From assembly GCA_021018995.1 (NCBI GenBank), contig CM037585.1:84916646-84980645 (forward strand): a stretch of 64,000 nucleotides of DNA, read 5' to 3'. The translations under genes and the position numbers were made by a program. The stretch is from Chloranthus sessilifolius (Eukaryota > Streptophyta > Magnoliopsida > Chloranthales > Chloranthaceae). This document shows, piece after piece, positions 18,698 through 64,000 of the stretch (position 1 is its first letter; every line of letters begins with the position of its first letter). The notes under the pieces were generated by a model. It was not told the DNA's origin. It searched no databases and saw only the letters and a list, made by a program, of their open reading frames with translations.

Positions 18698-18720
18698 CTT
18701 ATTGTTTCATGATAACCAAA

Positions 18721-39120: not shown

Positions 39121-39162
39121 AAAATAAGATGTCCATTGGTAGGACGGCTCGTTTAGGTACTG

Positions 39163-39342: not shown

Positions 39343-39376
39343 ACAAAAACTCCCTCTTTCTACCATCAAAAGAAAC

Positions 39377-43290: not shown

Positions 43291-43298
43291 CCTTCACA

Positions 43299-44893
43299 GT
43301 GATAACTACTGAGTTTGAAGAGTTGAGACCAGCCAGAGAGACCACTGGCTGGAGAGTTTGCATCGATTACAGAAAACTCAACTCCAAGACCAGAAAAAAC
43401 CACTTCCCTCTTCCTTTTAATGATCAAATTTTGGATAAGTTGGCTGGAAAAGCTTTTTACTGTTTTCTTGATGGGTACTCAGGGTACAACCAGATCCCTG
43501 TGTACCCCCTTGATCAAGAGAAAACTACTTTTACTCCTTTCGGCACCTTTGCTTACAGAAGGATGCCTTTTGGACTGTGTAATGCCCCAGCCACCTTTCA
43601 GAGGTGTATGTATGCCATCTTTTCTGATATGATTGATAAATTCTTGAAAATCTTCATAGATGATTTCTCGGTATATGGGGATAGCTTTGACCAATGTCTA
43701 CAACACCTCCATCAAGTCTTACAAAGATGTGAAGAGACCAATTTGCTCTTAAGTTGGGAAAATAGCCACTTCATGGTAACACAAGGAATTGTGTTGGGCC
43801 ATGTGGTCTCTAAAGATAGAATTGAGGTAGACAAGGCCAAAGTTGACCTCATTGCAAATTTGCCCCCTCCAAGAACAGTTAAGCAAATCAGATCCTTCCT
43901 TGGACATGCTGGATTCTACAGGTGGTTTATCAAAGACTTCAGCAAAATTGCTAAGCCATTGTGCCACCTGCTCTGCCAGGATGTGCCCTTTGACTTCTCT
44001 GCTGAATGTTTGAAGGCTTTTGAAACTCTAAAAATCTACCTCACCTCTGCCCCTGTACTCTAAACACCTTACTATACCTTACCCTTTGAATTGATGTGTG
44101 ATGCATCTAACTTGGCAATAGGTGTTGTCCTGGGCCAAAAAAAGATAAGCTGCCTGTGGTCATTGCATATCTCAGCAAATCACTTACTAAAGCTCAGCTG
44201 AATTATACAACCACTGAGAAAGAGCTTTTGGCAGTGGTTTTTGCTGTGGACAAGTTTAGACCTTACCTACTTGGGTCTAAAACTGTCATCTTCACTGACC
44301 ACTCAGCATTAAAGTACCTACTGTCCAAGAAGGATGCAAAGCCCAGATTGATTAGATGGATACTCCTGTTGCAGGAGTTTGACATCAAAATCAAGGGCAA
44401 GAAGGGTATAGAAAATGTGGTGGCTGACCACTTGTCCATAATTATGTTAGAAAAAGGTGTTGATGACCTTGCTACAAATGATGTCTTTTCGGATGAGCAA
44501 CAGTTTGCCATCCAATCTTTAGTTCCTTTGTATGCACATATTGTCAACTATCTAGTAATAGGCAAGATTCCTGCCCAGTGGACAAAAATGGACAAAGACC
44601 TGTTTTTCTCACAGGTCAAATTCTTTTTCTGGGAGGAACCTTGCTTGTACAAGTATTATGTAGACCAAATCATTCAGAAATGTATTCTCGAAAGTGATAT
44701 CCCCAGTATTCTGGCCATGTGTCATGAAAATGCCTGTGGGGGTCACTTTAGTGGTAGAAAAATAGCTGACAAAGTGTTACAGTGTGGTTTCTATTGGCCT
44801 TCTCTTTTCAGAGATGCCCATACACACTGCAAGGCCTGTGAAAGATGTCAGAAACTAGGAGGGTTGTCTAAACAAAATTCAATGCCTTTATAG
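43299..44893 (+). pseudogene. Athila RT-RNase H and integrase zinc region (plus copy B)
   Basis: RT begins at the junction with GWRVCIDYRKLN, has an intact FIDDFSVYG catalytic box (about 43653-43677), and reaches FLGHAGFYRWFIKDF. A stop ends this frame at 44061-44063, and a frameshift near 44145 separates it from RNase H (MCDASNLAIG; YTTTEKELLAVVFAVDKF; FTDHSALKYLL). The integrase zinc segment (CHENACGGHFSGRK ... CKACERCQKLGG) follows, ending in TAG near 44891. It is the better preserved of the two Athila pol copies. Confidence 0.85.
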
Positions 44894-45819
44894 CCCATCC
44901 TTATTGTAGAACTGTTTGATGTGTGGGGTATTAATTATATGGGCCCCTTTCCTCCTTCAAATGGTTTTCATTTCATCTTAGTGGCAGTGGACTATGTTTC
45001 TAAATGGGTAGAAGCCATTGCCATAATAACTAATGATAATCAGGTTGTCCTTAAGTTCATAAAGCAGAATCTCTTCTCCAGATTTGGTACCCCTAGAGCC
45101 ATTATCAGTGATGGAGGGAGCCATTTCTGCAACAAAAATTTTGAGAGGTTGCTCAAGAAATATTCTGTCACCCATAGGATTGCTACTCCCTACAACCCAC
45201 AAACCAGTGGGCAAGTTAAAATTTCAAATAGGGAGATCAAGCATATCCTTGAGAAGACTATGAGAACTGATATGAAGGATTGGGCTGACAAGCTTAATGA
45301 TGCACTATGGGCTTATAGGACTGCCTATAAGACTCCCATTGGTATGTCCCCATTCAGACTGGTCTATGGTAAGGCCTGTCATCTCCCAGTGGAGTTAGAA
45401 CACAGGGCCTATTAGGCCATCAAACATTTAAATCTAGATCTAACTTCTACTGGTCTTCACAGGTTGCTGCAGCTGTCTGAATTGGAAGAACTAAGGATGG
45501 ATGCGTATGCCAATGCCAGGATCTACAAGGAAAGGTCCAAAGCTTTCTTTGACAAAGGGCTGTTGAGAAAGAGTTTCATAGCTGGTGATAAGGTTTGGTT
45601 GTTTAACTCCAAACTTAAATTTTTACGGGTAAATTGAAATCCAGGTGGGAAGGTCCTTACATTGTCATGCACGTTTCCCCATCTGGTGCTGTCAAAATCA
45701 AGGATCCTAAGTCTGGGAGAATCTTGAAGGTGAATGGTCAGAGGCTTAAGCCATGTTTTGAAAAACCTGCTGAACTCATGGACACCATTCATTTTCAAGG
45801 AGATCCTTCTTCAAACTGA
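44894..45819 (+). pseudogene. Athila integrase core and pol end (plus copy B)
   Basis: The core reads [11 protein letters not shown] where the family has WGIDFMGPF, so the first catalytic Asp is Asn. [11 protein letters not shown] keeps the second Asp. [11 protein letters not shown] has Lys where the catalytic Glu belongs. Two of the three catalytic residues are therefore lost. A TAG at about 45413 and a frameshift near 45630 follow; the last frame ends KVNGQRLKPCFEKPAE ... and stops at 45819. Confidence 0.85.
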
Positions 45820-46145: not shown

Positions 46146-46690
46146 GCCTGGGTGACTATCGTTAGATTCAAGAGCTCTCGTGAGGTTAAAAAGGAAGTCT
46201 GGGAGAATTTCGCGCAGTTCACATGGAAACATTCTATAGCTGTCGCGAGATTCATTTGTACCTGAGAACCTCTCGCGCGATTCACATAGGGCCATCCATC
46301 AGCTATCGTGCAATTCATTTACACCAGCGAACCTCTCGCGCCATCCCCATAGAGATATATATATTTGTTGTCCGCAAGATTCAAAAGTTATCGCGAGGTT
46401 CAATAGAAACCTAGGAGCCGCTCGCGCAATTCAACAGAAATACTACACTTTCTGTCGCGAGGTTCTAAGTCGGTCGCGAGATTCAAAATGAACCTCAGAC
46501 CTTTTTGCGCAATCCAATTAGAGACCTTGGCGCCGCTCGTGCAATTCACAGAAATTCATCTCACTCTGTCGTGCGCTCCAAGGACAACCTGGGAGATTGT
46601 CGCGCAATCCAGATTGAATCAACACTTTCGCTAGGTTCATTTCTAACCACGCGACCAGATGTTCCAAAGCGTGCCAAGCTTCGCGATAAG
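46146..46690. repeat. TCGCGNNATTCA array upstream of the B 3' ORF
   Basis: About 17 copies of a [TC]CGCG[AC][AG][AG]TTCA word (for example GTCGCGAGATTCA, CTCGCGCAATTCAA, GTCGCGAGGTTC) at roughly 30-base spacing, in one orientation. It is dense in CpG, in contrast to its flanks. Confidence 0.9.
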
Positions 46691-46953
46691 TATTTTAACC
46701 ACGCGCTTGGTCCCTTTTCCATTATTTCCTTCCTTCTTCCCTCTGCAAAACCCTAGATTTTGGCGCTCTTTCACTTCTCTCCTCCAGCAACACTCCTACA
46801 GCTCATCATTCACTCCACAAATTTATACAAGTGTTCCTAGCATCACCCTCATCTATTGCCCTCTGCTAAGAGATCTTGAGGTGCCCTGTGCGTCAAACCA
46901 AATTAAACCCTAGATCTCGACCTCCTTTCTCAAACAAGAAGACAGAGTTAGAA
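46691..46953 (+). promoter_or_regulatory. Promoter-like leader of the B 3' ORF
   Basis: After the array come an AT-rich TATA-like AGTATTTTAACC, pyrimidine-rich sequence, and AAAACCCTAGATTTT near 46749, then a second CCCTAGATC near 46908. The same order (array, TATA, AAACCCTA leader, ATG) is seen upstream of the ORFs at 54580 and 60930. Confidence 0.5.
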
Positions 46954-48742
46954 ATGGCTCCAAAAACTACACAGAAGAGAAAAGGGGAGGACAAGGACCC
47001 TACAGAGACCACCCCTAAAAAGGCCAAGACTTCAAAGTTTCCTAAAAAAGGAAAGGAAGTGGTTGAGGAGGCGGCGGTACCAACCACTAAGTTCTCTTCT
47101 CCTTTTGAGCTCCTGGAGTCAATTCCATTGGAGCCTGAATCAGCCTTTGATGTACCATTTTTTGAGAAACAACCTCTCTCTGCCCCTGCAGTACAATTTA
47201 TGAGTAAAGCGGGCCTGCTACCATTGATGAGAGGAATTCCAGCACTAGCCTACCCTAGGCTAGGGCAGCTGTTCTATCAGCACATCAGGGTCAAGAAGGA
47301 CAACGATGGACAATTGTGCTTGTTGGTGCTGATTGACAACTTTGATATGTTGTGAGCCCTAAGGTGATTGCTAAAGTTTTGGGCATCCCAGCAGCATTCG
47401 ATCCTAGCTGTGGATATGGCCCCCCTCTGAGTGCATCGATTGATACAATTACACGGGCCCTTACTAGAGGATTAAAAGCCATTGGGGACTCAATCAGAAG
47501 GAGGGAACTAGAACCTGAACTGCTGTTCATTGACCAAGTCCTGCGGAAGAACATATATTGCTCAGGACATCAACAAGAGAGGAGAACCCCACTCCCCCCT
47601 CCACCTTTTATTCCTGCATCCACTACTCCTCTTGCATCCATCCCTCACCCCCCTCTGTTTCCATTCTCCATGCCCACTCCCCCTTCCCCTGTGCTTGGTA
47701 CCTGGGAGGACTCACCATCCCCTACCCTACCTCAGTACAAAACCACAATTCCCCCATCAACCACACATACACCTGCCAGCCCCCCACTCATCTCCTATAA
47801 AAAGTGAAAGACCATCCCAACCATCTCCCAGACACCACCCTCAATCCCTTCTATCCCCATTGATACACCCCACCTTCAAGACACCACCACCTCAGCCATA
47901 CCTCCTACATCCCCCCTCACAGACATTGACTTAACCCTTAACACCTCCATAGGCTTCCAAGCCTTTCTTTCTACCTTCCTTGAAATAATACCCACCCACT
48001 ACACCCCTCTCCCAGACTCCCCAACTACCTCCCAACATCACTCCCCAAAACCCCCCTCTTCCCCTCCCTCCACTTTCCATCATGCACCTTCCTCACCTTT
48101 CCAACTCGTACCCTCTTCTTCACAAACCCAACCTCCTATCCCTAACACACTACCCCTTATCCAAGACATTCAAACCCAGCTATCCACCAATACCCAAAAA
48201 TAGGATCAGATGCAAACTGAACTAACCTCCATCCAATCCACCCTACACACCTTAACCAACCCACCCATCCCTCCACCACCCACTTCACCCCCCTGGTCCT
48301 GTTCACTAACAAAGACACCCAAACTGACTTTCCTCCTGACTCACAACCCCCCCCCACCATCCACATTCCCTCTTACACCCCCATTTCCTTTTATTCTTTT
48401 CACCATTCCCATTTTGCCCCTCCTCCCTCACCTCCTACAGAGCAGCCTCCACCTCCCAAGGCCTCTGCTGCACCTCCACAAGAGCAAACTTATCCTAAGC
48501 AGAGGAAAGTCACTGCTAAGAGGTATGCTCCCAAAGCTGCTCCTTTAAAAATTGGCAAAGAGCCTGCTGCCTAGACTGAGGAGGCACAATCCCCTGCCCC
48601 ACCTGAGTCCACTGGAAAAGGGAAATCCCCAGTGGTCCCCACTGAGGAAGCCACAGCTAAAGGCAAAGGAAAATCCCTTTCTTTCCTGCAATGCTTTATG
48701 CTTAATACTAAGCCATCATTTCAATATTACCAGCTGTCCTGA
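46954..48742 (+). pseudogene. 3' accessory ORF of Athila copy B
   Basis: The product starts MAPKTTQKRKGEDKD, a Lys-rich, probably nuclear N-terminus. The core contains ALAYPRLGQLFYQHIRVKK, matching YYYPRLIRIFYQNL of the 60.9 kb ORF, then DMLSPKVIAKVLGIP and LEPELLFIDQVLRKNIY. A frameshift near 47350 and another near 47810 break it. The second half is an unusually long Pro/Ser/Thr-rich region (47580-48480), and the C-terminus, in the third frame, is Ala/Lys/Pro-rich and ends at 48740-48742. It resembles what databases call a putative plant transposon protein domain; the biochemical function is unknown. It is downstream of integrase, in the env-like position. Confidence 0.6.
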
Positions 48743-48849
48743 GATAATGGGAGCTTGGCCACAAGGGAAACAAACTATAGAGCAGCACAGCAGCCGAGAT
48801 TTCTGAGTGCTGAAACTGAGAGTGCCCAGAAACGCACCCTTATTTGGTT

Positions 48850-49100
48850 TTTGGGAGCTTTCAATAGGTCAAGATTCACTTTTCGTTAGGTCACACAATA
48901 ATTTTGACAGGATAATTGATGGTTTCGATAGGCACTGAGGCCTGTTGGAAGGATGGTTCCACCTATCGAAATCCTATCGAATCATCCCTTTTGGGAGCCT
49001 TGTCAGCTAGGATTTCGACAGGACACATAAACCTATCGAAACCATCCATTGCATCCTATCAAAATCATATTTCACCACTTCTATACCTGTCGATAGGTCA
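48850..49100. repeat. ACCTATCGAAA / TTTCGATAGG array (left copy)
   Basis: About ten copies of ACCTATCGAAA or its reverse complement, some as inverted pairs (ACCTGTCGATAGGT). The same word recurs at 52495-52645. Confidence 0.85.
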
Positions 49101-49330
49101 TTTGTGCCTCACTCCCTACCCTCTGCAAAACCCTAGCTCTCTTTGATTTATTCTAAATTTTAAAAAAAATGATACCTAGATATAATTAGTCTGCAAATTT
49201 AATTCCCATTCCATGTCAAAATAGTTACTGATTCTAGTTATGAGAAATGTTAAAACATGTCATGCATGTCAGATCTATTAGTCACACAATGTAGGTACAC
49301 TACGATTATACCAACAAAAGGAAATATGTT
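49101..49330 (+). other. Leader-like end of a truncated module and junction to the Tekay element
   Basis: ACCCTCTGCAAAACCCTAGCTC (49117-49138) nearly repeats the leader of the B 3' ORF (46737-46758), but no ATG and ORF follow. After an A-run near 49160 the sequence leads into the Tekay protease. The gag gene of that element is missing. Confidence 0.45.
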
Positions 49331-50778
49331 GGCATGGGGCACAGGTATTAATTGACTCTGGATCTACTCATTCGTTTGTGACCTCACAATTTGCGACCGA
49401 ATTGAGTGTTACTCCAGAACCTTTGGATTTTATCATGCATGTTTCAATTCCAGTGGGGGATGCGGTACAAATGGGCATGTGTTGTTGATCGATCGTGGTT
49501 TTAGTGGGAGATCACGAAATGACTGCAGACCTTATATTATTGGATATGCAAGGATTCGATGCAATCCTTGGCATGGATTGGTTGTCCCCGTATCATGCAC
49601 ACGTCGACTGTCTGCGAAAGATCATCACTTTCCGGCCACCGAATAAGAAGTCATTTGAGTTTATCAGCGACAAGGCTAATGTTATACCAATCATATCCGC
49701 GATACGAGCCGCACGTCTGATAAGGAACGGCGACAATGCGTGCCTTGCATTCCTCAAAGAGCAGAAAGAGGAGAAGCACGTGATAGCCAATATCCTGGTT
49801 GCTTGTGAGTTTGAAGATGTGTTCCTAGATGAGTTACCGGGATTACCACCTAACCAGGAAGTGGAGTATTCTATTAACTTAGCTTCAATCACAGAGCCGG
49901 TATCCAAGGCGCCTTACAGGATGGCTCTGGCGGAGTTAGTGGAATTGAAAGCACAGTTGCAGGAACTGCTGGACAAGGGGTTCGTGAGGCCTAGTGTGTC
50001 TCCTTGGGGGGCACCGGTCTTGTTCATAAAGAAGGACGGTTTGATGAGGCTATGCATCGATTACCGTCAACTAAACAAACTCACAATCAAGAATCGCTAT
50101 CCACTTCCATGAATTGATTATTTGTTTGATCAATTACAAGGAGCGAAATTCTTTTCAAAGATTGATTTGAGATCCGATTATTACCAATTAAAGGTTAAAG
50201 TCGATGATATTTTGAAGATGGCATTTAGGACCAAATATGGGCATTATGAATTCTTAGTAATGCCTTTCGGCTTGACTAATGCGTTGGCATCGTTCATGGA
50301 TCTCATGAATAGGGTGTTCAAATCTCATTTCGACACATGTGTCGTAGTTTTTGTTGACGACATCCTGATGTACTCAAAAATAGAGGATCATGAACAGCAT
50401 TTGAGGATCGCGTTGCAAACATTACGAGTGCATCAGCTATACGCTAAACTAAACAAATGTGAATTTTGGTTAGAACAAGTAAGCTTCTTCGAGCATGTAG
50501 TTTCTGAAGAAGGAATCAAGGTAGATCCGGCTAAGATTGAAGCAGTGGTTCAATGGGAACAAACTAAAATGGTTACCAAAGTGAGAAGCTTCCTAGGCTT
50601 GGTGGGCTACTACCGAAGATTTGTAGAAGGATTTTCTAAACTTTCCAGTCCGATCACACAACTAACCAGGAAGAATACAAAGTTTCAATGGATAGAGGCA
50701 TGCGAGAAAAGCTTCCAAGAGTTAAAGAAGAGATTGACGTCAGCACTGGTACTTGCAATTCCAGATGGCACTAGGTGA
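49331..50778 (+). pseudogene. Tekay-like protease and reverse transcriptase (element C)
   Basis: Protease LIDSGSTHSFV has its catalytic Asp at 49354-49356, and [16 protein letters not shown] follows. RT contains [54 protein letters not shown] and an intact [10 protein letters not shown] box (VDD at 50353-50361), then [15 protein letters not shown]. Single-base stops at about 49485, 50110 and 50776 interrupt an otherwise readable frame, so decay is moderate. Clade assignment rests on these motifs and the chromodomain found downstream. Confidence 0.85.
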
Positions 50779-52478
50779 TTTGTTGTATTTAGCGATGCGT
50801 CACACAACGGCTTGGGTTGTGTACTGAATCAGCACCAGAAGGTCATCGCATATGGATCCAGACAACTTAAGGATCATGAGAAGAGCTACCCAAAACATGA
50901 CCTAGTGCTAGCCGTGGTGATCTTTGCGTTAAAAATATGGAGACATTACCTCTATGGTGAAGCCTTTGAAATCTTTACAGACCACAAAAGTCTCAAGTAT
51001 TTATTTATGCAGAAAGATTTAAACATGAGACAAAGGAGGTGGATTGAATTTCTTAACGATTATGATTGCTCCATACAGTATCAGCCGAGAAAAGCAAACA
51101 TAGTTGCTGATGCATTAAGCCGCAAGAACTCAGCAAAATTGTCAAACTTGGTTTTGGGACTTCACAAATGGAAGTTACTGGAAGATATAGCTTTGTGCGA
51201 TGCAAGAATTGAGGTGAAAGTTTCAAGAGCCTTCTTAGCAAACATCATCATCAGACCAGTCATTTTTGATAAGGTCTATGAGCTACAATTGAAAGACACA
51301 ATTGATGAAGATCCGCCAACAAGTGACAGAGGGTACTCAGCAGGACTTTTCAGTGAAGAGTGATGGATCACTATTATTTAAAGGGAGATTATGCATCCCA
51401 GTAGATGCCAATCTGCGACAAGTCATCTTAGATGAATCTCATAAATCATCTTATGCCATCCATCCTAAGAGCACTAAAATGTATTAAGACTTAAAGAAAG
51501 GCTTCTGGTGGAGAGGGTTGAAAAGGGATATTGCCGAGTATGTTTCAAGGTGCTTGGTATGCCAACAGGTGAAGGTAGATCACCGACATCCAGCAGGATT
51601 ATTACAGCCATTGCCCATACCAGAGTGGAAGTGGGAATCCATTTCGATGGATTTCATTTTGGGGCTGCCAAGAACAGCAAGGAGGCACAATGCTATATGG
51701 GTGATTGTTGATAGACTCACAAAGTCTGCTCATTTCTTGCCATATAACACAACCTATACAGCAAGTAGGTTGGCGGACCTGTATATGAAGGAGATCGTCA
51801 GATTGCACGACATTCTCGTAAGTATAGTCTCCGATAGAGACCCGTTATACACTTCCCAATTGTGAAAGAAATTTCAAGAAGGAATGGGCACTCGACTTGA
51901 CTTCAGTTAGGCTTTTCACCCTTAAACAGATGGCCAAACGGAGAGAGTCAACCAAATTATCGAAGATATGCTACGAGCATGTATGCTCGATTTTCAGGGA
52001 GTATGGGATCAACACTTGCCATTGGTCGAGTTTGCCTATAATAATAGTTTCCAGACAAGTATTGGCATGGCACCATATGAGGATCTATATGGGTGGAGAT
52101 GTCGGTTCCCAATCAGTTGGGAAGAGACGGGAGAAATGTCTATTTTGGGGCCCGAGATTCTAGAAAGCAATATCGAGAAAGTGCGCTTGATTAGAGAGCG
52201 GATAAGGGCCACACAAAGCAGGCAGAAAAGCTATGCGGACCTAAAGTGAACGAGCGTCGACTTTCAGAAAGGAGAGAAAGTTTTTGTGAAGATCTCGCCA
52301 ACAAAGGGTGTAATGCGTTTTGGCAAGCGTGGCAAATTAAGCCCATGGTACGTTGGACCGTTCGAGATATTGGGATGTGATGGAGAGGTTGCTTACAGAC
52401 TTGCACTACTGCCACACCTCTCTGGCATGCATGACATTTTTCATGTCTTGATGTTGCGATAGTACATCAGGCCAAACC
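50779..52478 (+). pseudogene. Tekay-like RNase H and integrase (element C)
   Basis: RNase H ([36 protein letters not shown]) runs to about 51120. The integrase has DLKKGFWWRGLKRDIAEYVSRC..C, SMDFILGLPR with the first Asp, VSDRDPLYTSQ with the second, and a DGQTERVNQIIEDMLRACM-type segment with the Glu. It then has FAYNNSFQTSIGMAPYEDLYG and the GPFEILG/VAYRLAL C-terminal part, reaching FHVLMLR before a stop and an insertion. Frame changes occur near 51365, 51490, 51870 and 52250. Confidence 0.85.
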
Positions 52479-53897
52479 TGTTGAAATGAGCCACCAACCT
52501 ATCGAACACACCAGATGAAGGCTGCGGATGCTGGAACTTTATTCTCAACCCAACCTATCAGAACCTATCGAAAGGATCCTGAATCCTAGCGAAAGGAATA
52601 GAAGGCCTATTTGGAACCTGTCGAAAGCCTCAGGAACCTATCAAAATCGACTGAAGGACTTCTGAGAAAAGCTACTGTGCACATGCTATCAGTTGGTGAC
52701 CTGCTGCACGCAATCTGAGGCACTCTGGTGACCGGCACGAAGTCTCTAGAAGTGCCCTGGGAAACCCTAACTGACCTACGTGCTCTCCCCTTCTAAAAGG
52801 GGAATAAAGGAGGGAATAATAGGATTATTCTAGAAGCTATAATTGGCAAGAAAAATGGATCTGAGGTAGAGGAGGAAAGCTATAAAAGGAAGGGAAGCTG
52901 CCAGAAAAAGGGGATCAATTCTAGAGATCATAGCTTGCATCGAAATTCTCTATTCTTCCTTTTAGCCCAACCATGGTTGGCTAATTTCTTTGGAGCAGCA
53001 AAGAGGAAGGTTTAGTCTGTAATTGGGGAAAGCTGAGAGTGTTATTGAGGGTTGGATGTTGCATAGACTGCAAATCTGAGGGCATTTCATTATATGGTTA
53101 GTTTAATTCAATATAATGTTGGTTTAACTGCTGCAATTAGATCTATAGTTCCTCTGGTTTCATTTGGTGCTCGATCGGCTTTGTGTAGATGGGAATAGCT
53201 CACCCACTTAACTGGTAAACCTCTTGGATGCCATTTGATCTCCCTAGATCTGATATTCCTGTAATTGCCTGTGTCTATGGCCTGGCGATTGCAGCATTTA
53301 TAGTGGTTATAATGTTCTGATGGAAGCATGAGAATGGAGTGAATCTATTGGATGATCTGTGACCATTGAAGTGGACAGATCATAGCCTTAGGATCAAGCC
53401 AAATCTCTAGCCTAGATCAAATTCTTCTACCCTGCAGCTGTGCCTATGGCTAGATGAAGGATTAATGCACTCTAAACTCTCTGTAACCCTGGCAGCTCAA
53501 CCTAATTGTAGTAAGACCAAACTCCAAGCTGCTTCTTCCCATTTTTTGTTTTAAATTTCCCTTGACTGCAAGATTTGTACTCTTGATCCATTTCTGCAAT
53601 TTTAATTATTTTTTGTAGTTTAGTTTAAAAGCGAAAAACCCTTAGACCTCTCCTCTTTCTTTTGTTGTTTTAGCATTACGAAAGGGTGCCAGATCTGCTT
53701 TAGATCTAGAGATTTGTCTAATTTTCAGTCACATTTCCCTATGGACATACCCTTACTTACTTTCTTTTAAAACTTGCAACAACAGGCCCTGAATACTTGC
53801 AGGACTGTGTGCGAGCCTGCCTTGGTGTGTGCTAACCACAGACCCTTTTACTGGTTGAATTTAAACCCCTTTTTAGACAGAAGGCAAGATCCCAACA
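52479..53897 (+). mobile_element. Probable solo LTR inserted in the chromodomain region of element C
   Basis: The segment splits the Tekay pol between MLR-x-YI and PTVLVKWQN. It has TGTTG..CAACA ends, an ACCTATCGAAA array at 52495-52645, AAACCCTAACTG near 52763 and a TATA box (CTATAAAAGG) at about 52880, so it looks like an LTR. A 5-bp duplication directly outside the TGTTG/CAACA ends is not seen (AAACC versus GTACT). An AGTAC word does flank the segment slightly wider (52461-52465 and 53897-53901), so the exact borders are open. Confidence 0.5.
52495..52645. repeat. ACCTATCGAAA array (right copy)
   Basis: Six or seven copies with single-base variants (ACCTATCGAACA, ACCTATCAGAACC, CCTAGCGAAAGG, ACCTGTCGAAAG). 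Same word as at 48850-49100. Confidence 0.85.
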
Positions 53898-53992
53898 GTA
53901 CTCGTCAAGTGGCAAAATCATTCCCAAGAGGAAGCGACATGGGAGCGTGAGTCCAATGTGCGACAAGCCTATCTGGATCTATTTGCATAAGG
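53898..53992 (+). pseudogene. Chromodomain end of element C pol
   Basis: VLVKWQNHSQEEATWERESN then LDLFA-stop. This is the terminal chromodomain typical of chromovirus integrases, a module thought to bias insertion toward marked chromatin. It closely matches VLVRWKNHPAEEATWECEAD ... LDLFAES of the second element at 60.1 kb. Roughly 45 residues between MLRxYI and this point are missing. Confidence 0.85.
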
Positions 53993-54224
53993 TAATTCAC
54001 GTCTTCTAAAGTTTCAATGCAAGTATAAATTTAAGGACATATTTTTTTAATTATTCATGTGTTAATTTATGGATCGACATTGTCATATATGGTCGATTGA
54101 TTGCATAAATATATTGGGAAGTGGCCATATGGCATATCCTAATAGATGAGAGATGAAAGATTTAGGTGGAGACAGAAGGAATGAACAAATGAAGCAGAAA
54201 TAATTCATTAACTGTATCTGTACC
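53993..54224 (+). other. Spacer between chromodomain and motif array, element C
   Basis: T-rich noncoding sequence, no gene. Confidence 0.5.
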
Positions 54225-54376
54225 TCTCTCGAGCGAGAACTTAAAGCTCGCTCGAGCGAGCTTCTCAAACAGGATAGGAAGAAAAGGGGCCAGAGGCCTT
54301 TTCACCCATTTAAAATAGCTGCTGCTCACTCGCGCGAGCCACTATACCTTGCTCACGCGAGGAAGAGAATATAAAC
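54225..54376 (+). promoter_or_regulatory. CTCGCTCGAGCGAG array with TATA box upstream of the C 3' ORF
   Basis: Four copies: CTCTCGAGCGAG (54225), GCTCGCTCGAGCGAGC (54246), CTCACTCGCGCGAGCC (54325) and GCTCACGCGAGG (54350). Just after the last is ATATAAACA (54369-54377), a plausible TATA box about 210 bases upstream of the ATG at 54580. The LTR of this element has the same motif at 57071-57325. Confidence 0.7.
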
Positions 54377-54579
54377 AGGGGCGAAAAGCCTTCCCTGGCC
54401 ATTTCATTCAAAACAGAGAGAGGAGGAGAGTTGGGGTTTTGGGCGTTCGAGGAGAAAACCTTCAAACCCATCCGATTGAGGGTTTCTTTGCACCATTTTC
54501 GACGGATTTTCGCGCACAAAGGTAATTTTTACCTAAATCTACCTTTATTTTCCTCATTTTCGTCAATTTGAACCCTAGA

Positions 54580-55804
54580 ATGAGTACATCCGACCCACAC
54601 CCTAGGCAATGGAAGAAATTAGCAGTCAAGCTGCCATCTTCGAAGAAAAGGGTGACGCCTCCACCACCACCTTTAACCCAGCCCGCCCCATGGTGGGAAG
54701 CCAAAAATTTTACACCCGAGTGGAGTATCCACAAAAGTTTTTTTGAGGACCCGTCCACCACCAAGTGGCCCTAGACTACTTGACCGTTAATGAATTAAAG
54801 CCTCTCTTAACCCTGATTAGCGCACACTACTATCCTCGATTGGTAAAACTCTTTTACCAAACCCTAAAAACCAATCCTACCAAGACCAAATTGATTTGCG
54901 AAACTGATGGTAAAGAATTCATTTTTGAAGCCAAGGACATTGGCCAGGCCATGGGATGCCCTTTAACCTATATAGAAGATGAAATTTCTAAGACCCCGCT
55001 TCCCTGCGACTTTGAATTTTTGGAAATTACGGCCGACATAATGGGCGGTGTAGTGGCCACGGGAAAATCCATCCCCTTCGACACGAACAAGAGAGGCGGG
55101 TACTGTTTTTGAATGCCATTCATGTGGCATTCCACGATAGGTGGTTTAGTGCCCCTATCCTTGTGAGGTAGGCTATTTTGCATGCCCTTGGGTGAAATAA
55201 GTCGGGTGCCGTCCCCAAACTGGTTAAGAAACTAGCTTACGCCCGTTTAATCTCCAAACTCTTTGAACTCCGAGACAGGAGCGACGACTTCCAAATTCAA
55301 GCCCATGAACCTACTCTCATCGATAACATCATCTCCTACCGTATGAAGGACTTGCAACAAAGTCTTCGGAGCTTACACGATAGTGTTAAAAATAAGTGGG
55401 CCACTCAGATGACCCAGCAAACTACATCTCCTATAGGGTCAGTCCCACCCACGAGGCCTTAGTCTACAACATCACCATCATCACGGCCCATGCCTGCCAA
55501 TCAAGAAAGCATGCTCAACGAGATACTAAACCATACGTGACAGATGAGGTTGCAGCTACGATACATCAAAGCTATTGGTACCGACTTGATGTCCCACACG
55601 TATCTGGAGACCTTTGAGCAGTGCCTCACACGATTGAGGAGTGCCGCCTATGGTGCTTCCACCTCTGGGCCAGCTACTGACGCCAGGACTGCGAAAGAGG
55701 GCGATGACGAGGATTTCGACACTGATGGGGGTGAGGATGATGATGACGATGACGATTGAGATGAGGCATCGGGTTCCGAGTATGCCGAGGGTGATGACGA
55801 TTAG
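54580..55804 (+). pseudogene. 3' accessory ORF of Tekay-like element C
   Basis: The start is ATG at 54580, just after AACCCTAGA. A basic, Pro-rich N-terminus is followed by WWEAKNFTPEWSIHKSFFEDP, then AHYYPRLVKLFYQTLK, and after a break AIHVAFHDRWFSAPIL, AYARLISKLFEL and a C-terminal helix (RLQLRYIKAIGTDLMSHTYL). The end is acidic, with GGEDDDDDDD and EYAEGDDD-stop (55802-55804). Frameshifts lie near 54766 and 55105, with further stops at about 55170, 55460, 55537 and 55759. Family members at 60930 and 46954 share the YPRL..FY core. It lies between the chromodomain and the polypurine tract, where standard Tekay elements have almost no sequence. Function unknown. Confidence 0.65.
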
Positions 55805-56420
55805 GGCTGGCTGCCGAGGAGATTTACAGGGATTTTTCCAAATTTTGAAAGCAACTTTTATAAATTGATGTCATTTTGAAGCAAATTGCTGAACTAATGT
55901 GACATGAATGTCACTTTTGATTATATGGATGTAAATTTCAAGTCAAATGGTGGAACTATGGTGACTTAGCTGGCACGCTTAGTTTTACTAAATACTTGTT
56001 TTGGTGAATGGATCATTTTGATGAATCGTTTATTTTGTGAATGTCATATCTGCATAAATGAGTTATTTTGTGAATCCATTTAATTTTGGACAATGGTTGA
56101 ACTTAGCAAATGAAATATATTCTTTTCTGCATGCATCATTTTGGCAATATGATTTACCTTACTCAATGGATTATTTTTCTTTTGGTGATTGGAGCATTTA
56201 CTCCCTAAATTTCTTTAGTGTGCATGGACTCTTTATGAATGATTACCTGTGGAAAAGGAATAGGTCACATTTAGATGGACAAGTAAGTTATCTAATTGCC
56301 TACTCTAATGTCTGTGGTGTGTTATACGCGAGTACCTTGTGTTCTTTTGACAGGATATGTAAATGATTACCAAACGTGTGCAGCGTGACTTACGACAATT
56401 TTCAAGGATAAAAATTTTAT
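55805..56420 (+). other. Noncoding 3' region of element C
   Basis: T-rich, with repeated words of the type TTTTGTGAAT...ATGG. An ORF of 102 codons (56058-56366) has no recognisable motif and is probably chance. Confidence 0.45.
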
Positions 56421-56433
56421 AAGGTGGGGTGAA
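56421..56433 (+). other. Polypurine tract of element C
   Basis: AAGGTGGGGTGAA directly before TGTAATAACC. Confidence 0.75.
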
Positions 56434-57070
56434 TGTAATAACCTCCAATTTTTGTTAACCGTGCAGGTCAGGTGTGCGTGCGAATGTGTATATGTGTATG
56501 TGGTTCACAAGGGAATCCATGCACAAATTCACACCTTAGGTATATGCGTCTAAAACATTAGAGTGTTAGAGACATCTAACACCTATTTGGGGTGTTGGTG
56601 TTTTACAAGTTGACAAACTCAACTACTTGAAATAAGGGAGAGGGGTCTCACACGTGGGCTTCATTTTGAGCTCATTTGAGTTTGTTGAGAAATAGAGAGA
56701 GAGAGAGAGGAGAAAGAAGAAGGGGTTTGTAGAGAAAGATGAAAAGGTTGTGAGATCAAGGTGAGTAGATCTAATATAAGGTGGGTGAAGTAATGTGATT
56801 GTGCATAGAGATTCTAGCTACACGATTCAGATGATCTCATGTGGATCCGTGAGCAAAAAGGGGAAGCCGTGAAGTGGATCTAGGTCGTTGAGACCTTCCT
56901 TGATTTCTTCAAGAAAGAAAGACCCAATCCAAAGAGCCTTCAAGGCATTAAAGGTCTGGATTTAATGCTACTAATCTTGTAAATATAGCATTTAATGTTT
57001 CTTAAGGAGAAGGGTTTAAAATAGTTAAGATTTGGTGAGGATCGAGTTTGGGGAAAACTCAGATCTGGAA

Positions 57071-57325
57071 TGTCTCTGCTCCTCGCGTGCACGAGATTAA
57101 AGGCTCGCTCGCGCGAGCCTCAGAGACATGACTTGAACAGCCTCACGAGAGAGTAAGAAAAGCAGTGAGAATGTTGCGTCTTGCTCAGGCGAGGACTTGA
57201 AGGTAAAAGGTCTCGCTCGAGCGAGGCCTCGCACGACACCCATCAGACAACTGAATGTCAGTTCGGTCGCGCGAGGTTTTGACCAAGTTTTGCTCGCGCG
57301 CCCAAGCATTGAGGCTCGCTTGCAC
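57071..57325. repeat. CTCGCTCGAGCGAG array in LTR C
   Basis: About nine copies, for example GGCTCGCTCGCGCGAGCC (57102), TCTCGCTCGAGCGAGG (57211), CGGTCGCGCGAGG and TGCTCGCGCG. Same word as upstream of the 3' ORF at 54225. Confidence 0.9.
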
Positions 57326-58348
57326 TAGAAACAGGGTACTTCACCTTGTTCGTTTCTTCTGAATTCTTCAGTAGTTTATGTCCTTTGTTCTTCTAGGCAT
57401 TCTTAGAGGTTGTATGAATAATTTGATTATAGGAACGACATGGGAAGAGATATGAGCACGTGCTTGATGCAATTTAGTTTAATCTCCATGTGACTCCGTT
57501 TGAGTTAGGGAAACTCAATAGCATGTGTATTCTACTTTCAACTAGTATGTGCGTAATGATATGATAATGATATACGTGTTGTTTTTTCTGTAAGTACTTA
57601 GTATTTGCATGAGTTCAGTCATAGCTTTGATTACACGATTTTCATAAGTATAATCACTCAGAAAGAGAATCTTGTGTGCGTGTGTGAAAATTTTGGATAT
57701 GTTACGTGTGTGGCATCAAGAAGATGTAAGGCATGTTGTGTGTGGTTGCAAAGAAATGTGAAGTAGTGTGTGAGAACCCTATGTGAAACTTGAACTAATA
57801 ATAATTACCACAACTCACGATGATAAACTATATGTAACATGCACATTTGATTTAAGGTTTAAATTATGAATACCCAACCGACATGACGGGATATCCGTGA
57901 CTGACACGATGGGATATCCATGACCGGTACGGCAGAATATCTTTACAAATTGTGTACCAGTTCGACAGGATATCTGTTCTTTGATTTCCAATAGTGAAAA
58001 TACTTCATTCGACACAAGTCATCTCTTGCAAAGGGACTTGGGCATTGTGAAATGGTTCATATGAACGACGATGGTGGGTACTTCCATCAGGGGCTCGATG
58101 CTATATTGCTCGAGCAATTACTTAAGTGATTCTTTTAAGTGTGTGTATAAGGGTGTGTTCCATTCGACTAGTAAGAATGTGATTTGAAACCATGCATCAG
58201 ATAGCCTCTTCGGTCAAGAAATTGTTTAAACTTCGTTTCCATGCTTAGAAATGTATCATGAAATATATGTGTAATGTCAGAAAATATACATGCTATTTGT
58301 TCTTCTTATTGAGCTATGATGTAGCTCACCCTTCGACTATATGTCACA

Positions 58349-58447
58349 GGTTCAGGGATAGCTGAGGACACCGAGGACTAGGAATTAGAGGACACGGACT
58401 ACGTGCCTTTGGAGGAGTCGAAGCCTCCTCCTGAGGATTTCTTTTAG
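58349..58447 (+). other. Acidic micro-ORF in LTR C
   Basis: After TGTCACAG a short frame reads GSGIAEDTED, a TAG, then ELEDTDYVPLEESKPPPEDFF and stop. The second part aligns with LEDSDYIPEEELETPAEEFF of LTR A. The internal TAG makes this copy broken. Confidence 0.45.
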
Positions 58448-58844
58448 TAGACGTTCGCTATGGCACTTTGATCATTTTGTGAGAATCATTGTAAGGCTTG
58501 GTATGTCTGGCCACTTATATTTTGTAAGATGTCAAATTACCTAGAGATAGGTTATTATTTTTGCAAACCATCCCATGGTGACTTTTGTTTTGTCACCAAT
58601 GGTTCGGTTCAGTTCTTTGTTTCATGTGATGGGCATGAGGATTGAACCGTCTTTTTGTAGTTAGAATTACCTTATATAGAAATAAAAGTTTAAATTGCAT
58701 TATTCGGATTCATTTGATTTGTTAGACGTGCTTTGTTTCCACATAGGCGTAGATGTACCAAGTGTTCTATGTGATGTTAGGATGCGACTTAAAGGGTCTG
58801 TATCGATGGCGCGGGTTTCAGGGTGCCAAAATTCGGGGCTGTCA

Positions 58845-59336
58845 TAAGAATATTTTGTTCCAAAATGTAAGAAAAATATTACAGGGCAATGACACTTCTC
58901 ACCTCTTAGGGCAAAACAACGGGCTAACAGGCCCAAGAGTCAATGATATATTTTTACCTCTGCAATCATTGCAATCACATCATTGAGCTTGCCCACTGAT
59001 CAACCAACAACCTGCATTTTAAAAAAACCCAATCAGTGAATCCATTTAGCTTTGGATTGATTAAGATACTCAAACTAAGTGGTAAGGATTTGTGTTACAT
59101 AGCTAAGTGTGTGATTGCTGACGACTGTCCAAGTAGCACAAGCCGTATCAGTCGGGATCATCCATGTTTTTTTTTATTTTTATCGGTAGAGACTATCCAT
59201 GTTGATGGATCGCAGTCAGCATTGATCAAATAATAGATGATGTTGGCTGCTAATTGGAGCCCTAAAATGGATGGATAAAATATGTTGTGGACCATCGACA
59301 TGGCCGGAAGCCAATTTTTTAGAGACAATTTTGCAA
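58845..59336. other. Sequence between element C and the foldback
   Basis: No gene recognised. It separates the LTR end from the second Tekay remnant. Confidence 0.4.
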
Positions 59337-59420
59337 GCAGCTTATGTGACGTGATATGACTGGCTGCGTACATAGTTGGGCAAAGCACTGCAGCCAGTCA
59401 CATTGCGTCACATCAGCTGC
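59337..59420. repeat. Inverted repeat with 31-bp arms
   Basis: GCAGCTTATGTGACGTGATA... (59337-59367) and ...GCGTCACATCAGCTGC (59390-59420) pair at about 27 of 31 positions around a 22-base loop. It could be a small foldback element or a transposon end. Confidence 0.75.
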
Positions 59421-59654
59421 CTACACTTTGTCTCAACACATCTATCCTACGTTTATAATTTTCCATTTATTTATGTAAAAATTATTGAGAAGGAATAATG
59501 TAGGTTTGAAATTTTTGGCATAATCTCACTTTAAATCTACAACTTTTCAAAACGTAGTGCTAAACTAGATAAAATTTTCCAAACTAAACCATGAAACATA
59601 GTCAAACCAGAGTCGAAGTAAAACATATTAATTCAAAGTACACAAGATACCTTT

Positions 59655-60154
59655 AGGGAGAGACTTAAGTCGGTGCAGAGCAGACAAAAGAGCTATGCCG
59701 ATATCAAAAGAACGAGTGTCGACTACACAGTTGGCAAGCATGTTTTTGTGAAGGTATCGCCCATGAAAGGCGTCATGAGATTTAGAAAGAGAGGCAAGTT
59801 GAGTCCCCATTATCTTGGACCTTTTGAGGTTTTGGGTCGAGTCGATGAGGTCGCATATCGCGTTGGATTACCACCATTGTTTGATCAGGTACACAACGTC
59901 TTCTATGTCTCTATGCTCCGAAAGTATGTGAATGACCCTACTCATATCTTGGGAAGTCAGCCGCTTGAAATGCACAAAGATATGAACATGATAGAAGAAG
60001 CAACTCAGATACTAGATAGAAAAGAGTAAGTGTTACGCACGAAGGTGATTCCTTTAGTGCTTGTTAGATGGAAGAATCATCCGGCTGAAGAAGCTACTTG
60101 GGAATGCGAGGCGGATGTGAGGGAACAGTATCTGGACTTGTTTGCGGAGAGCTG
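59655..60154 (+). pseudogene. Integrase C-terminus and chromodomain of Tekay-like element D
   Basis: Starts inside integrase with SRQKSYADIKRTSVDYTVG, continues GKLSPHYLGPFEVLG, VFYVSMLRKYVNDPTHIL and the chromodomain VLVRWKNHPAEEATWECEAD, and ends LDLFAES-stop at 60154. One in-frame TAA at about 60028 replaces a Glu-type codon between DRKE and VLRTK; otherwise it is intact. The rest of pol is missing, so the element is truncated at 59655. Residue by residue it is closer to element C than to the Athila copies. Confidence 0.85.
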
Positions 60155-60427
60155 AGAGCAAAAATTGTATCATTGCATGTATTTTTGTACATTTGACTCG
60201 TCTATGTAAGCGAAAGTTCACACGTTTATCTCAACTTATGCAAGAAATGAAATGAACGAATGTGGGTTGTAGATGGACCTTTTGTGAAATAAAAAAAATA
60301 TATGGCTTGATGGTAATTGCATCATGAAAAGGAGGGCCAATATGTACTCCACAAAACCATAAAAAATCTGACAAAGAAACCGAAGGAAGTGAAGGAAAAT
60401 AACAAGTAAAATTTTTTCCAGTTCTGT
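60155..60427 (+). other. Spacer between chromodomain and motif array, element D
   Basis: Noncoding. Its length and position equal the spacer of element C. Confidence 0.5.
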
Positions 60428-60686
60428 CAAAATCGATTAATAGATTTTGGATTTCAATTAATCGAAATTGTTCGATTGAACGACTGGCACACACCAGTGC
60501 GCTGAGAAACCTGGAAAATTATTAATAGTCAATTTCGATTAATCAATTTAAATTTGATTAATCAATTTTTAAAATCAATCAATCGACTTTTGAAATTGAT
60601 CAATCGATTTCGAGCAGCAAAGTTTAAGTGATGAAAACCGATTAATCGATTTTTGAAATCTATTAATTGATTTTTGCCTATATATA
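60428..60686 (+). promoter_or_regulatory. ATTAATCGATTT array with TATA box upstream of the D 3' ORF
   Basis: Eight to ten copies of ATTAATCGATTT or variants (AATCGATTAATAGATTTT, CCGATTAATCGATTTT, ATTAATTGATTTT), then CTATATATAAC at 60678-60687. AAACCCTAA boxes follow near 60820 and 60850 before the ATG at 60930. The LTR of this element carries the same words. Confidence 0.75.
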
Positions 60687-60929
60687 ACAATTTTGGGAAA
60701 TTTTTCCCATTTCGAAATTCAAACTCATATTTCTCTTTTGAGCGCCCTTTTTCTTCTTCCTTGGGCTAACGAAACTTGCGAAGATTTGAGGGATTTGGGG
60801 ATTGAGTTCGAATCAAAACCCTAACCATTCAAATCGAACGCAATCGGTAAACCCTAAATCTTCAATTTTATTTCATTTTGAGTAATTCTAGCCCTAGGTT
60901 TTGAAATTCTTTCACTTTTAAAACCTAAA

Positions 60930-62380
60930 ATGCCGCCTATGACTCGACTAGCTTCGAAGCAAGCGGCTTCCAAGTTGCCCGTATAGCGTAAGAACGCCAC
61001 GCCACCACCACCTTCACCTTCATCATCATCATCATCATCTTCATCCTATTCGACAGACATGTCATCACATGAATCGTCACCACCACCACCTCAACCAGGC
61101 CATTTACCCCAACCTAATGAATGGTGGTTTGTCAAAGAATTTGAATACAAATATATCATTGACCAAGCTCTCTTTGAGGACCCCGAGGTTGAGGGCAAAA
61201 CCAAGTGGGCCCGACAATACCTCGTTAATGCAGGCCTAAAAAATCTTTTGAAACCATTGCATGGATATTACTACCCTAGGCTCATTAGGATATTTTACTA
61301 AAATCTAAAAGCGGGTCGAGTGACTGACACCGTTAGGACAGAGATAGATGGTCGTAACTACTTTTTTACCCTACGCCACATTCATGAATCTTTAGAGTGC
61401 TTTCTGACATATGTACCAGAGACTAATCTTTTACCCCCATTCCCACAACCCATTAGTTTCGAGGAAATAAGAACTGAGATGACAAAGGGGAATAAGGGAT
61501 CCGGAAAATCCATACGGAGGGTTGATTTACCCCCTCATTTATGGATGCTTGACTTAATTATAAAATATAACCTTATCCCATGTTCCATGATACCGAGAGG
61601 GTAGAGTTGGTCCAACAGGCATTGTACGCGGCATACCACGGCCGTTGGTTCGACGCTACCAAATTAGTGATAGAAGGTATGATATACATTAAAGGGAAAA
61701 TGTTGAAGGGACCCTTGAGACCCAAGGAGCATATGCCTTATGCTCGACTCATTTCCAGCATGTTAGAGTGCTACTTTGCCGCCGTAGAGTACATGATTTC
61801 TTCTACTGAGCTAAGGGCCATTAATCATGTGAAACAATATTCTTTTGCTTCGTGGAGCCGAAGCTACAAGCTTTTGAAGAAGGCTCTACCACTAGAGGAA
61901 CAAACACCTGTCCAGGCTGGTGATTCCCCACCACCACAGCAAGACCTACCAGCAGCGGGGGAGCAGCCTCCTGACCCAGTACCACCTGAGAAGCAGCCTA
62001 TTGACCCTGTGCAGCCAGAGGAGCATCCTTTAGTACCACCTCCTGCTCCTACACAGTCCACTCCTACTACTCCAATGCATTCTCACAGGAGACGGGCATC
62101 TCAGGCCCCTACACCTAGTACTATTAATGATGTTCTTGCCCTCATGGTGGAGAACAATCGCCAGATGTTGGAACACCACAGAAGGATGGAGGAGAGCAAC
62201 ACTCGGATGGACTACAGACTGAATTTTCATGAGGCCCTACTCCATCAGACCATGTAGTTCATGTATCCCAGCGACTACCATCAGTGCATCGCGGTGGCGC
62301 TGGCATGGGCTCTTGATACATCGAGCTCTGGGACTTGCGACCATGACGAGGAGGATCAGCCCGGGGGCGGGACTACGTGA
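60930..62380 (+). pseudogene. 3' accessory ORF of Tekay-like element D (best preserved copy)
   Basis: Starts ATG at 60930. The N-terminal region is basic then Pro/Ser-rich. The core has NEWWFVKEFEYKYIIDQALF-EDP, KTKWARQYLVNAGLKNLLKP, YYYPRLIRIFY, a GRNYFFTLRHIHESL segment, ALYAAYHGRWFDATKLVIEG and YARLISSMLECYFAAVEY. A long Pro/Gln linker leads to a C-terminal helix (LMVENNRQMLEHHRRMEESN) of coiled-coil appearance, and a weakly acidic end that stops at 62378-62380. Only three stops (near 60985, 61300 and 62255, each one base from a sense codon) and one frameshift (near 61590) break about 480 codons. The family resembles the putative plant transposon protein domain; whether it binds DNA, RNA or protein is unknown. 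Confidence 0.7.
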
Positions 62381-62693
62381 TTACCTTTTGGCATTTGTTT
62401 TTCAATTGTAATTAGTTTTTGGGTTGTAACTATTTAACTCTTTATGTACTAAACTATGTGGCATGGACACCATTTCTTTTGGGTTGTAATTATTTTTGGG
62501 TGTGGGTAAACGATGTATAGAACATTAATCCAATTTCAATCGTGGTTGTTTGCAATTCCATTTACTCATCATATCTGCAAATGTAGTTGGATGTGCTATG
62601 ATTGATGTTGTATGGATCTTCATGTGTCTGCGTGTGTGGGTATCCCAAGAGGGGAGAGCCCTTGGGTACATTTTTGAGGACAGAAATTCCCAA
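62381..62693 (+). other. Noncoding 3' region of element D
   Basis: T-rich, ending in TTTTTGAGGACAGAAATTCC before the purine tract, wording shared with element A. Confidence 0.5.
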
Positions 62694-62704
62694 TGTGGGG
62701 ATAA
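62694..62704 (+). other. Polypurine tract of element D
   Basis: TGTGGGGATAA before TATAACATCCCC. Confidence 0.6.
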
Positions 62705-64000
62705 TATAACATCCCCAAAATTTAGGCTTTAAGCAGTATCCTCAGGATGCGTGCTCGACTGGTCATAAGTTTGACCAAGTGGAAGTCAACATGAGGACTT
62801 AGGTTAAAGTAGGTTTGATATGAATGAGCACGTGTGCGTAGTGTTGGATCTTATTTAGAGATCATATACACATGTCTTGGGTGTATGTGCTTTACACCAA
62901 AACATAAAATGGGTTAAAGGGCTTGGATAACTTAAGAGAATTTATTTCTCTTTGGTTTGGTTGGTGTGTAGAGATTTATGAAGAGAGAGAGAGAGAGAGT
63001 AAGAGAGTAAATGTTAGGGAGTCTTGTGGAATTGTGAATTGATGGAGCACGAGAACCATTAATCGCGACGGTATCGCATGGGGATTCATGGAATTGGAGC
63101 AAAGAACCCTAGACTTGAACCAAGCCATTGAATCAACCATAAGATTGATTTGAGGTGAGATTTCTTTAAATTATGATTTGTATGTTGTTGTGCATTGATT
63201 TATTGATTAAATGTTGAATGAAAGAAGTAGAAAAGAAAGAAAAGTTGAAGGAAAGAAAGTTGGAAGAAAGGCCCGAAGAGGGCAGAGTTCCTGTCAAAAT
63301 CGATCGATTTTGACTTGAAAGTAAAACTGGGCACTAATGCCCAAAACCGATTAATCAAAATTAATTTGATTAATCGATTTTTGAATTTTGATTAATTGAT
63401 TTGAAATTGATTAATCATCTGTGCACTCCCACTGGCTGGAAAATAAGAAGCCTGGGAAAATCGATTGATCGATTGGTAAATGATCAATCAATTTTGGATT
63501 TGTGATTAATCGATTTGGGATCGATTAATCAATTTGGTAAATCAATCAATCGATATTGGGATCGATTAATCGATTTTGGCAATTTCTGCTAAAGTTTTAT
63601 TTTTGACTTTGGGGTTCTGGAAGGGCCTTGTACCTTCTTTTATGCATCGTTCTTGATGCTTTACTTATGATATGATGTAATTTAGGTTAAACCTTTGAAT
63701 GCGAGCATGGGGAAACACAATGGACCTTGATGCTCGGGAATCCATAAGCGTGAGGTAGGGAACTCTTTGAACATCTACTTTAATTGCAAGAGCATGTATA
63801 TAGTGATATGAAAATGAATAGTTATATGTTGAACATGTAAAACTTAAGTGTGTGTGAACACTAAGTAAGGAAATATGTTTACGATATGAGTATGTGACGT
63901 CCCCAGGGGATGTGAATGTTATAAGGGCATCTGAGTGATGCATTGAGCTGGTTACATCCCAGGGATGTATAGAAAATTATGAAGATAATTAAATGAATAT
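62705..64000 (+). mobile_element. 3' LTR of element D (partial, runs off the window)
   Basis: Starts TATAACATCCCC (TG decayed to TA) at the polypurine tract. A TATA-like/GA-rich stretch lies about 260-300 bp in (62960-63005), as in LTR A, followed by an ATTAATCGATTT array (63295-63585) and GGGGATGT/ACGTCCCC words near the window end. Confidence 0.7.
63295..63585. repeat. ATTAATCGATTT array in LTR D
   Basis: About eleven copies (AAAATCGATCGATTTT, TTGATTAATCGATTTT, GGGATCGATTAATCGATT and others). Same word as upstream of the D 3' ORF. Confidence 0.9.

Follow-up and report, generated by a model that had tools for sequence, protein, structure and literature searches.

In a 64,000-nucleotide stretch of the Chloranthus sessilifolius genome (GenBank assembly GCA_021018995.1, contig CM037585.1, positions 84,916,646 to 84,980,645, forward strand; hereafter the window), the region from 34 to 64 kb holds four broken or truncated Ty3/gypsy long terminal repeat (LTR) retrotransposon copies, two Athila-like (A and B) and two Tekay-like (C and D; these lineage labels follow from domain content and the look of the sequence, with no tree behind them). 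All four share one gene order, in which pol is followed by an array of near-palindromic words and then by an open reading frame (ORF) of a single family, and in A, C and D the array word recurs in the 3′ LTR. We propose that the arrays may be phased operators for a dimeric regulator encoded by the element itself, most likely its own PF20167-type (Transposase_32) protein, which would read a word specific to its family; we place the probability of this reading slightly below one half (about 0.48).

Element A lies on the minus strand, with its Athila-like pol running from 43207 down to 39380. Array A1 (39150-39350; six TCAATCGATTGA sites in three pairs 22-23 bp apart) occupies the interval between the end of pol and a 3′ ORF fragment (38949-39152) that retains the later half of the domain. 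Arrays A2c (37880-38230, seven sites) and A2b (36885-37010, four sites) lie beyond it, and array A2a (34880-35010, four perfect sites in two pairs 22 bp apart) lies within the 3′ LTR (33910-35250; TGATCGGT...ACCGATCA, preceded by a TTTGGGGGTG tract); TATATAAA begins ~28 bp beyond A2a. Element C, on the plus strand, comprises pol from the protease to the integrase C-terminal domain (49282-52459, with broken frames and without its 5′ end), array C1 (54215-54370; four gCTCGCGCGAGc sites in two pairs 23 bp apart) with TATAAA just after it at ~54370, a broken 3′ ORF (54580-55756) and a 3′ LTR (56434-58844, the end approximate; GGTGGGGTGAA then TGTAATAACCTCC ... GGCTGTCA) that contains array C2 (57070-57335, nine sites). 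Element D, also on the plus strand, has the end of pol (59622-60026), the rest being missing from this copy, then array D1 (60425-60690; nine TCGATTAATCGA sites with gaps of 18-21 bp, or of 42 and 63), TATATATAA at ~60679 after the D1 sites, a broken 3′ ORF (60930-62254) whose core resembles PF20167, and a 3′ LTR (GTGGGGATAA then TATAACATCCCC) from 62705, taken to the window end at 64000, with array D2 inside it (63290-63585, eleven sites). The LTR starts, which place A2a, C2 and D2 in LTRs, were judged by eye as a polypurine tract followed by TG or TA; self-BLAST detected no LTR pairs of 80 bp or more in the window, and no LTR was found there for element B. The original prediction, made from the bare sequence, had described an extra ORF after pol in C and D, preceded by an array whose motif recurs in the LTR, and the same pairing in the minus-strand Athila copy; motifs learned de novo, together with the LTR reading, bear out both descriptions.

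The same prediction had given the whole of 46146-63585 to C and D. The part from 46170 to 48800 belongs instead to element B, because it adjoins B pol and repeats the same order, and the array and ORF seen there thus stand as a fourth case. Element B (plus strand) runs from an Athila-like pol that begins at the reverse transcriptase (RT; 43212-45816), through array B1 (46170-46660; 16 sites with the core TCGCGA/TCGCGCGA, 11 of the 15 gaps being 30-33 bp, and in part composed of 63-bp tandem units by self-BLAST), to a 3′ ORF (46954-48800, the end approximate) with a broken frame and a proline-rich tail. Assignment of 46954-48800 as a 5′ ORF of element C was dropped, since it stands directly behind B pol. 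The superfamily calls rest on RT, RNase H and integrase domains for B and C, on the SH3_Tf2-1 end for D, and for A on an RT that is 74% identical to that of B. At 43207-43212, A and B meet head to head as two different Athila-like copies, each truncated at the junction. Elsewhere in the window, a 173-bp inverted repeat with a 91% self-match (15175-15347) is perhaps a miniature inverted-repeat transposable element, and at 18720-19295 two 288-bp units, 96.5% identical, stand in direct tandem.

A blind scan of the window with 1016 palindromic 10-mers (low-complexity words excluded, one mismatch, at least four copies per 300 bp) marked 14 of 638 scan windows, compared with 0 of 1914 shuffled ones. 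Eleven of the 14 fell at places named in the original prediction, one revealed a further A array (38001-38300), and two were AT-rich (1701-2100), where palindromic AATTTAAATT repeats also pass the scan and are likely low complexity. A2b, B1 and C2 fall short of this strict four-site scan and are visible with motif models. Counts of near-palindromic 12-mers per 300-bp bin had flagged 3301, 15001 and 25801, none of which is an array, and were replaced by the repeated-word scan. Motifs were then learned de novo only from the arrays that precede the ORFs (giving TCAATCGATTGA for A, gCTCGCGCGAGc for C, TCGATTAATCGA for D and the TCGCGA/TCGCGCGA core for B) and scored on the remaining arrays. Matches within the same element numbered four in A2a, four in A2b, seven in A2c, nine in C2 and 11 in D2, which corresponds to densities of 20-37 per kb; elsewhere the density is about one per kb, as the choice of threshold dictates. 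These counts were reached in none of 200 shuffles and none of 1000 random placements. When the four motifs competed for the held-out sites, the element's own motif won 32 of 34 (A 15/15, D 10/10, C 7/9), the two exceptions being C sites that prefer the B motif. The word is constant within an element, as had been claimed; the accompanying claim, that it differs between elements, holds only in part. At a loose threshold the A and D motifs match each other's arrays, as do those of B and C, and the C motif at low threshold also matches A2a three times. The words split into an AT-rich class (A, D) and a GC-rich class (B, C) that run across lineages, and they are not fully distinct.

The wider comparison covered one genome (2.17 Gb), in which a few copies were examined in sequence: 13 stretches led by word pairs (L016-L028), seven at preset positions (L029-L035) and four pieces upstream of PF20167 ORFs (L036-L039). 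Two TCAATCGATTGA words separated by 1 to 30 bases have 22,664 forward occurrences genome-wide, and the reversed control has none. With AT-only words included, array hits came from 36 of the 686 scan windows of the preset stretches and from 158 of the 1960 that make up all 20 long stretches, versus 0 of 1960 after shuffling. Arrays of another word, GATACGTATC, were seen in L029 (6401-6900) and L030 (7801-8200), with gaps of 14, 21, 26 bp and longer.

Two or three turns of the DNA helix span ~21 and ~31 bp. For 23 of the 28 sites scored in the window the nearest neighbour stands at 19-23 bp (null expectation 3.8). Element A has 20 of 21 sites with a neighbour at 22-23 bp (1.3 under random placement; 0/5000), each of the nine D1 sites has a neighbour at 18-22 bp (null 2.0; 2/5000), and in element C the C1 pairs are set at 23 bp and the C2 gaps range from 16 to 42. 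Outside the window, distances of 19-23 bp account for 48 of 71 sites in the preset stretches (null 10.9) and for 199 of 249 in the pair-led stretches (null 37.6), the latter being partly selected since they were chosen for a 13-42 bp distance; pair-led sites of words other than A's give 70 of 97 (null 13.4). When the window and the other stretches are taken together, in 49 arrays whose word is not composed of A/T only, 275 of 364 nearest neighbours are at 19-23 bp (null 53.0) and just four at 10-13 bp (null 77.5). Among exact A words no more than 60 bp apart in the window and L016-L035, 38 of 65 neighbouring pairs are exactly 22 bp apart, and the 32 distinct spacers of such 22-bp pairs share bases at 0.319 versus 0.256 expected, with G or C favoured at both ends. 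Distance within the arrays is conserved far better than spacer content, the spacers being nearly random. Adjacent exact sites agreed in word in 106 of 106 cases (0.53 expected; six words tested, pairs seen of four). Palindromes suggest a two-fold symmetric reader; sites of dyad symmetry, set at helical distances with spacers free to vary and a single word in each array, are what operators lined up for a dimeric protein look like.

By sequence comparison, the 3′ ORF family of the window is related to Transposase_32 (PF20167), with homology found to accepted members. The core of the D ORF matches PF20167 at E = 3.3e-4 (21 bits, under the curated 45-bit cut-off) and the C ORF piece alone at E = 0.15; the joined B and C ORF pieces gave no match up to E = 1. 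The claim that the ORFs form one family agrees with these comparisons, C and D sharing a family and the family being related to PF20167. Above the 45-bit cut-off, PF20167 is found in at least 150 other places in the genome, that of L037 among them, and among the matches listed it constitutes the 3′ ORF of copia elements in 55 of 150 copies. At least one copia element in the genome has a CGGACGTCCG array beside its PF20167 3′ ORF. L036 is assigned to copia by RVT_2, and L038 by position, with a copia RT ~2 kb upstream. In L036 (213-1600, sense), which has the best PF20167 score among the matches listed, the PF20167 ORF overlaps the end of the copia RT frame; L036 is probably an internally deleted copy. 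Homologues of the 3′ ORF were absent from a protein-database search and from viral contigs, and a sequence search of the PDB returned no relative.

The association between word and ORF was assessed in ten ORF-array pairs. The word is TCAATCGATTGA in A, L019 and L022, aTnTCGCGAnAt in B and CCTCGCGAGG in L037, gCTCGCGCGAGc in C, TCGATTAATCGA in D and L031, and ACGGACGTCCGT in L038, with a looser form of it in L039; a CGG-CCG core is present in the L038 and L039 words (CGGACGTCCG) and not in those of A, B, C and D. ORF similarity and motif similarity are correlated (Mantel rho 0.66, 5/5000 permutations), also without the short A fragment (rho 0.65, 22/5000) and with seven ORFs, A, L022 and L031 being dropped and the B-L037 and L038-L039 pairs kept (rho 0.57, 100/5000). 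L019 and L022 are not independent of the A word, because they were found through it. The prediction had further depended on arrays not being absent from most copies of the ORF, and of five copies obtained without regard to arrays, four (L031, L037, L038 and L039) have one in front of the ORF, against a base rate of 0.169 per 1.2-kb interval in the preset stretches. For L039 the strict scan picks another word, CGAAATTTCG, and four exact CGGACGTCCG are also there; the short CGAAATTTCG-rich block (470-640) lies within the copia-type array and is perhaps another small insertion. The upstream DNA of L038 and L039 can be aligned only in short pieces that hold motifs (the longest 94 bp at 73%), and between D and L031 transversions are rarer in the sites (eight of nine used; 4/112) than in the rest (46/388; p = 0.007). 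Both appear to be stronger hints than the sharing of words by close descent.

TATAWA occurs within 60 bp downstream of A2a in the LTR and of C1 and D1 before the ORF, or three of the nine window arrays, against a sense-strand background of 0.035; it also follows the arrays of L031, L022 and L037. The L038 and L039 arrays have no TATAWA within 60 bp downstream, and the stretch examined for L019 stops at the last array site. This test is not independent, because the pattern was noticed before it was tested.

Under the proposed mechanism, dyad-symmetric sites repeated about every two helical turns would let several protein dimers line up along the same face of the helix, and arrays both before the ORF and in the LTR would allow a single factor to act on both promoters. 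The difference of the word between families and its retention on either side of the ORF point to a reader carried along by the element itself, for which the PF20167-type ORF is the candidate common to the copies studied. We infer that this protein would bind as a dimer, with a specificity that varies by family, and that the outcome may be element-specific activation of the LTR and ORF promoters or protection from silencing.

Several observations weigh against this proposal. The sites of B are spaced differently, at 30-33 bp, and the effect is weaker in the PF20167-led copies, where five of 16 sites stand at 19-23 bp (null 2.3). Six of the nine window arrays (A1, A2b, A2c, B1, C2 and D2) lack TATAWA within 60 bp, the PF20167 ORF of L036 has no array in the 1.15 kb upstream of its domain, and transitions between D and L031 are not rarer in the sites (18/112) than in the rest (50/388). 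In the window, motif class is not aligned with pol lineage. Descent of whole elements from common ancestors accounts for part of the ORF-motif correlation and can yield such a correlation without binding; the co-variation anticipated by the original prediction is present, with descent responsible for a share of it. A DNA-binding domain was not found in the 3′ ORF, and the sole structure model of the ORF was unusable (mean pLDDT 42.6, pTM 0.26). Finally, L021 and L025 have like arrays of other words close to DNA-transposon-like ORFs (with DUF659 and a plant mobile domain, respectively), so the presence of an array alone is no marker of the PF20167 module. Arrays of TATCGNNCGATA-like words were observed in L021 (2651-3100, the same stretch as the DUF659 ORF), L025 (1951-2450, near the plant mobile domain ORF), L028 (9151-9650) and L029 (3751-4250), with many gaps of 20-21 and 30 bp; these are perhaps subterminal repeats of DNA transposons with similar spacing.

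The arrays could alternatively serve host transcription factors (stress factors, for example) as ordinary promoter or enhancer elements, with the ORF performing an unrelated task (the old envelope-like idea). LTRs commonly use host factors, some of the arrays precede TATA boxes, and sites for stress factors were proposed for the Sirevirus motifs in the available text of Bousios et al. (2010, PMC2829016). A host factor does not readily explain family-specific words, however: one genome contains many distinct words, neighbouring exact sites are unmixed, the spacing is mostly equal and the word tracks ORF lineage. We regard this explanation as unlikely.

A function in RNA, in which paired palindromes form a hairpin for RNA dimerisation, packaging or small-RNA production, is in our judgement rather less probable again. 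The position of the arrays is compatible with such a role, because the genomic RNA includes any U3 array by way of the 3′ LTR. Both in the RNA of yeast Ty3 and in the LTRs of maize Sireviruses, palindromes are reportedly important. The palindrome pairs of A and C automatically allow stems of ~12 bp with loops of ~10 nt, and the A spacers are slightly more self-complementary (0.344) than expected (0.249). Against this, the sites of D and L024 are not paired but follow one another at 18-21 bp, and a hairpin requires neither palindromic arms nor a near-fixed loop length.

That the arrays are functionless products of tandem duplication, linked to the ORF by hitch-hiking within the element, would suit the 63-bp units of B and the many arrays that share words by descent. 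Yet the A spacers are nearly unrelated although distance and word are kept, the alignment upstream of L038 and L039 is limited to short motif-bearing pieces, and transversions, though not transitions, are depleted in the sites shared by D and L031, making this account very improbable. Least credible of all is that the CpG-centred sites are methylation platforms that draw host silencing rather than escape it: CpG observed/expected exceeds that of the 600-bp flanks in eight of nine window arrays, but this enrichment is a consequence of the words, and in D-family alignments, with small numbers, the sites show no clear difference in CpG decay from other positions.

The reading of the arrays as operators for a self-encoded regulator has its closest precedent in the Sireviruses. 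In the available text of Bousios et al. (2010, PMC2829016), 13 Ty1/copia elements have LTRs with palindromic motifs; in nine of them, which bear an ENV-like gene, motifs also stand upstream of that gene, linker motif copies being given for 9/9 listed ENV-bearing elements and 0/4 without ENV; a TATA box comes soon after the LTR motif cluster, and the motif is described as Sirevirus-specific relative to classic copia elements. A, C and D likewise carry element-specific palindromes both ahead of the 3′ ORF and within the LTR, L038 and L039 (CGGACGTCCG, with the CGG-CCG core) resemble the Sirevirus motifs, and the published word Tnd-1, ACAATCGATTGT, contains the core of element A, CAATCGATTG. The window elements differ in being Ty3/gypsy, in lacking the CGG-CCG core, in having a PF20167-related ORF and in sharing a spacing rule. 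The findings thus match the published Sirevirus palindromic motifs and extend them to gypsy elements.

A second likeness, drawn from arrangement and descriptions, is to the VANC proteins of VANDAL transposons, anti-silencing factors that bind their motif and remove methylation, where, in the available part of Hosaka et al. (2017, PMC5735166), short family-specific motifs are dense in the element's own non-coding DNA and a candidate reader is encoded. Here, in contrast, the carriers are LTR retrotransposons with gypsy pol rather than VANDAL (Mutator-like) DNA transposons, and the sites are palindromes with helical spacing and variable spacers, whereas the VANDAL motifs are described as one-orientation tandem repeats; B does show tandem units. 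Additional plant LTR-element ORFs, among them a sunflower Athila ORF with partial Transposase_32 similarity (PMC11728184) and the Retand TRP28 ORFs, which come with tandem arrays (PMC11963269), are similar in lying as accessory ORFs between pol and the 3′ LTR and in having a suggested regulatory role; the accessible portions of those papers do not link them to palindromic arrays or to a copia 3′ ORF. A 2026 paper, in its available text, cites VANC as an example when discussing LTR-element ORFs (PMC12844716). A search of open-access literature by title and the start of the abstract, with subscription papers mostly outside it, recognised no palindromic arrays at a gypsy 3′ ORF and no PF20167 copia 3′ ORF. 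Points that seem to be new within the literature searched are that such arrays occur in gypsy elements of Athila-like and Tekay-like type, that the ORFs of gypsy and copia alike can be placed with PF20167, that a single spacing rule holds for different words, and that ORF similarity is correlated with motif similarity.

More tentatively, and at odds we would put clearly below even, a PF20167 protein and the phased palindrome array that it reads privately might be one module that spread among Sirevirus-like copia, Athila and Tekay-like elements, with the word changing and the helical spacing kept. The long-debated envelope-like ORF of plants would then be a DNA-binding regulator of self-recognition, possibly an anti-silencing one, that prevents cross-activation between families. 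For the role of the accessory 3′ ORFs of plant LTR retrotransposons, a changing word, a constant ORF family and a common spacing pose a simple binding question. If the proposal is true, these elements would provide a retrotransposon counterpart to the VANC systems and would associate a named protein family with the Sirevirus motifs, offering a natural series in which one protein family has, possibly, many DNA specificities.

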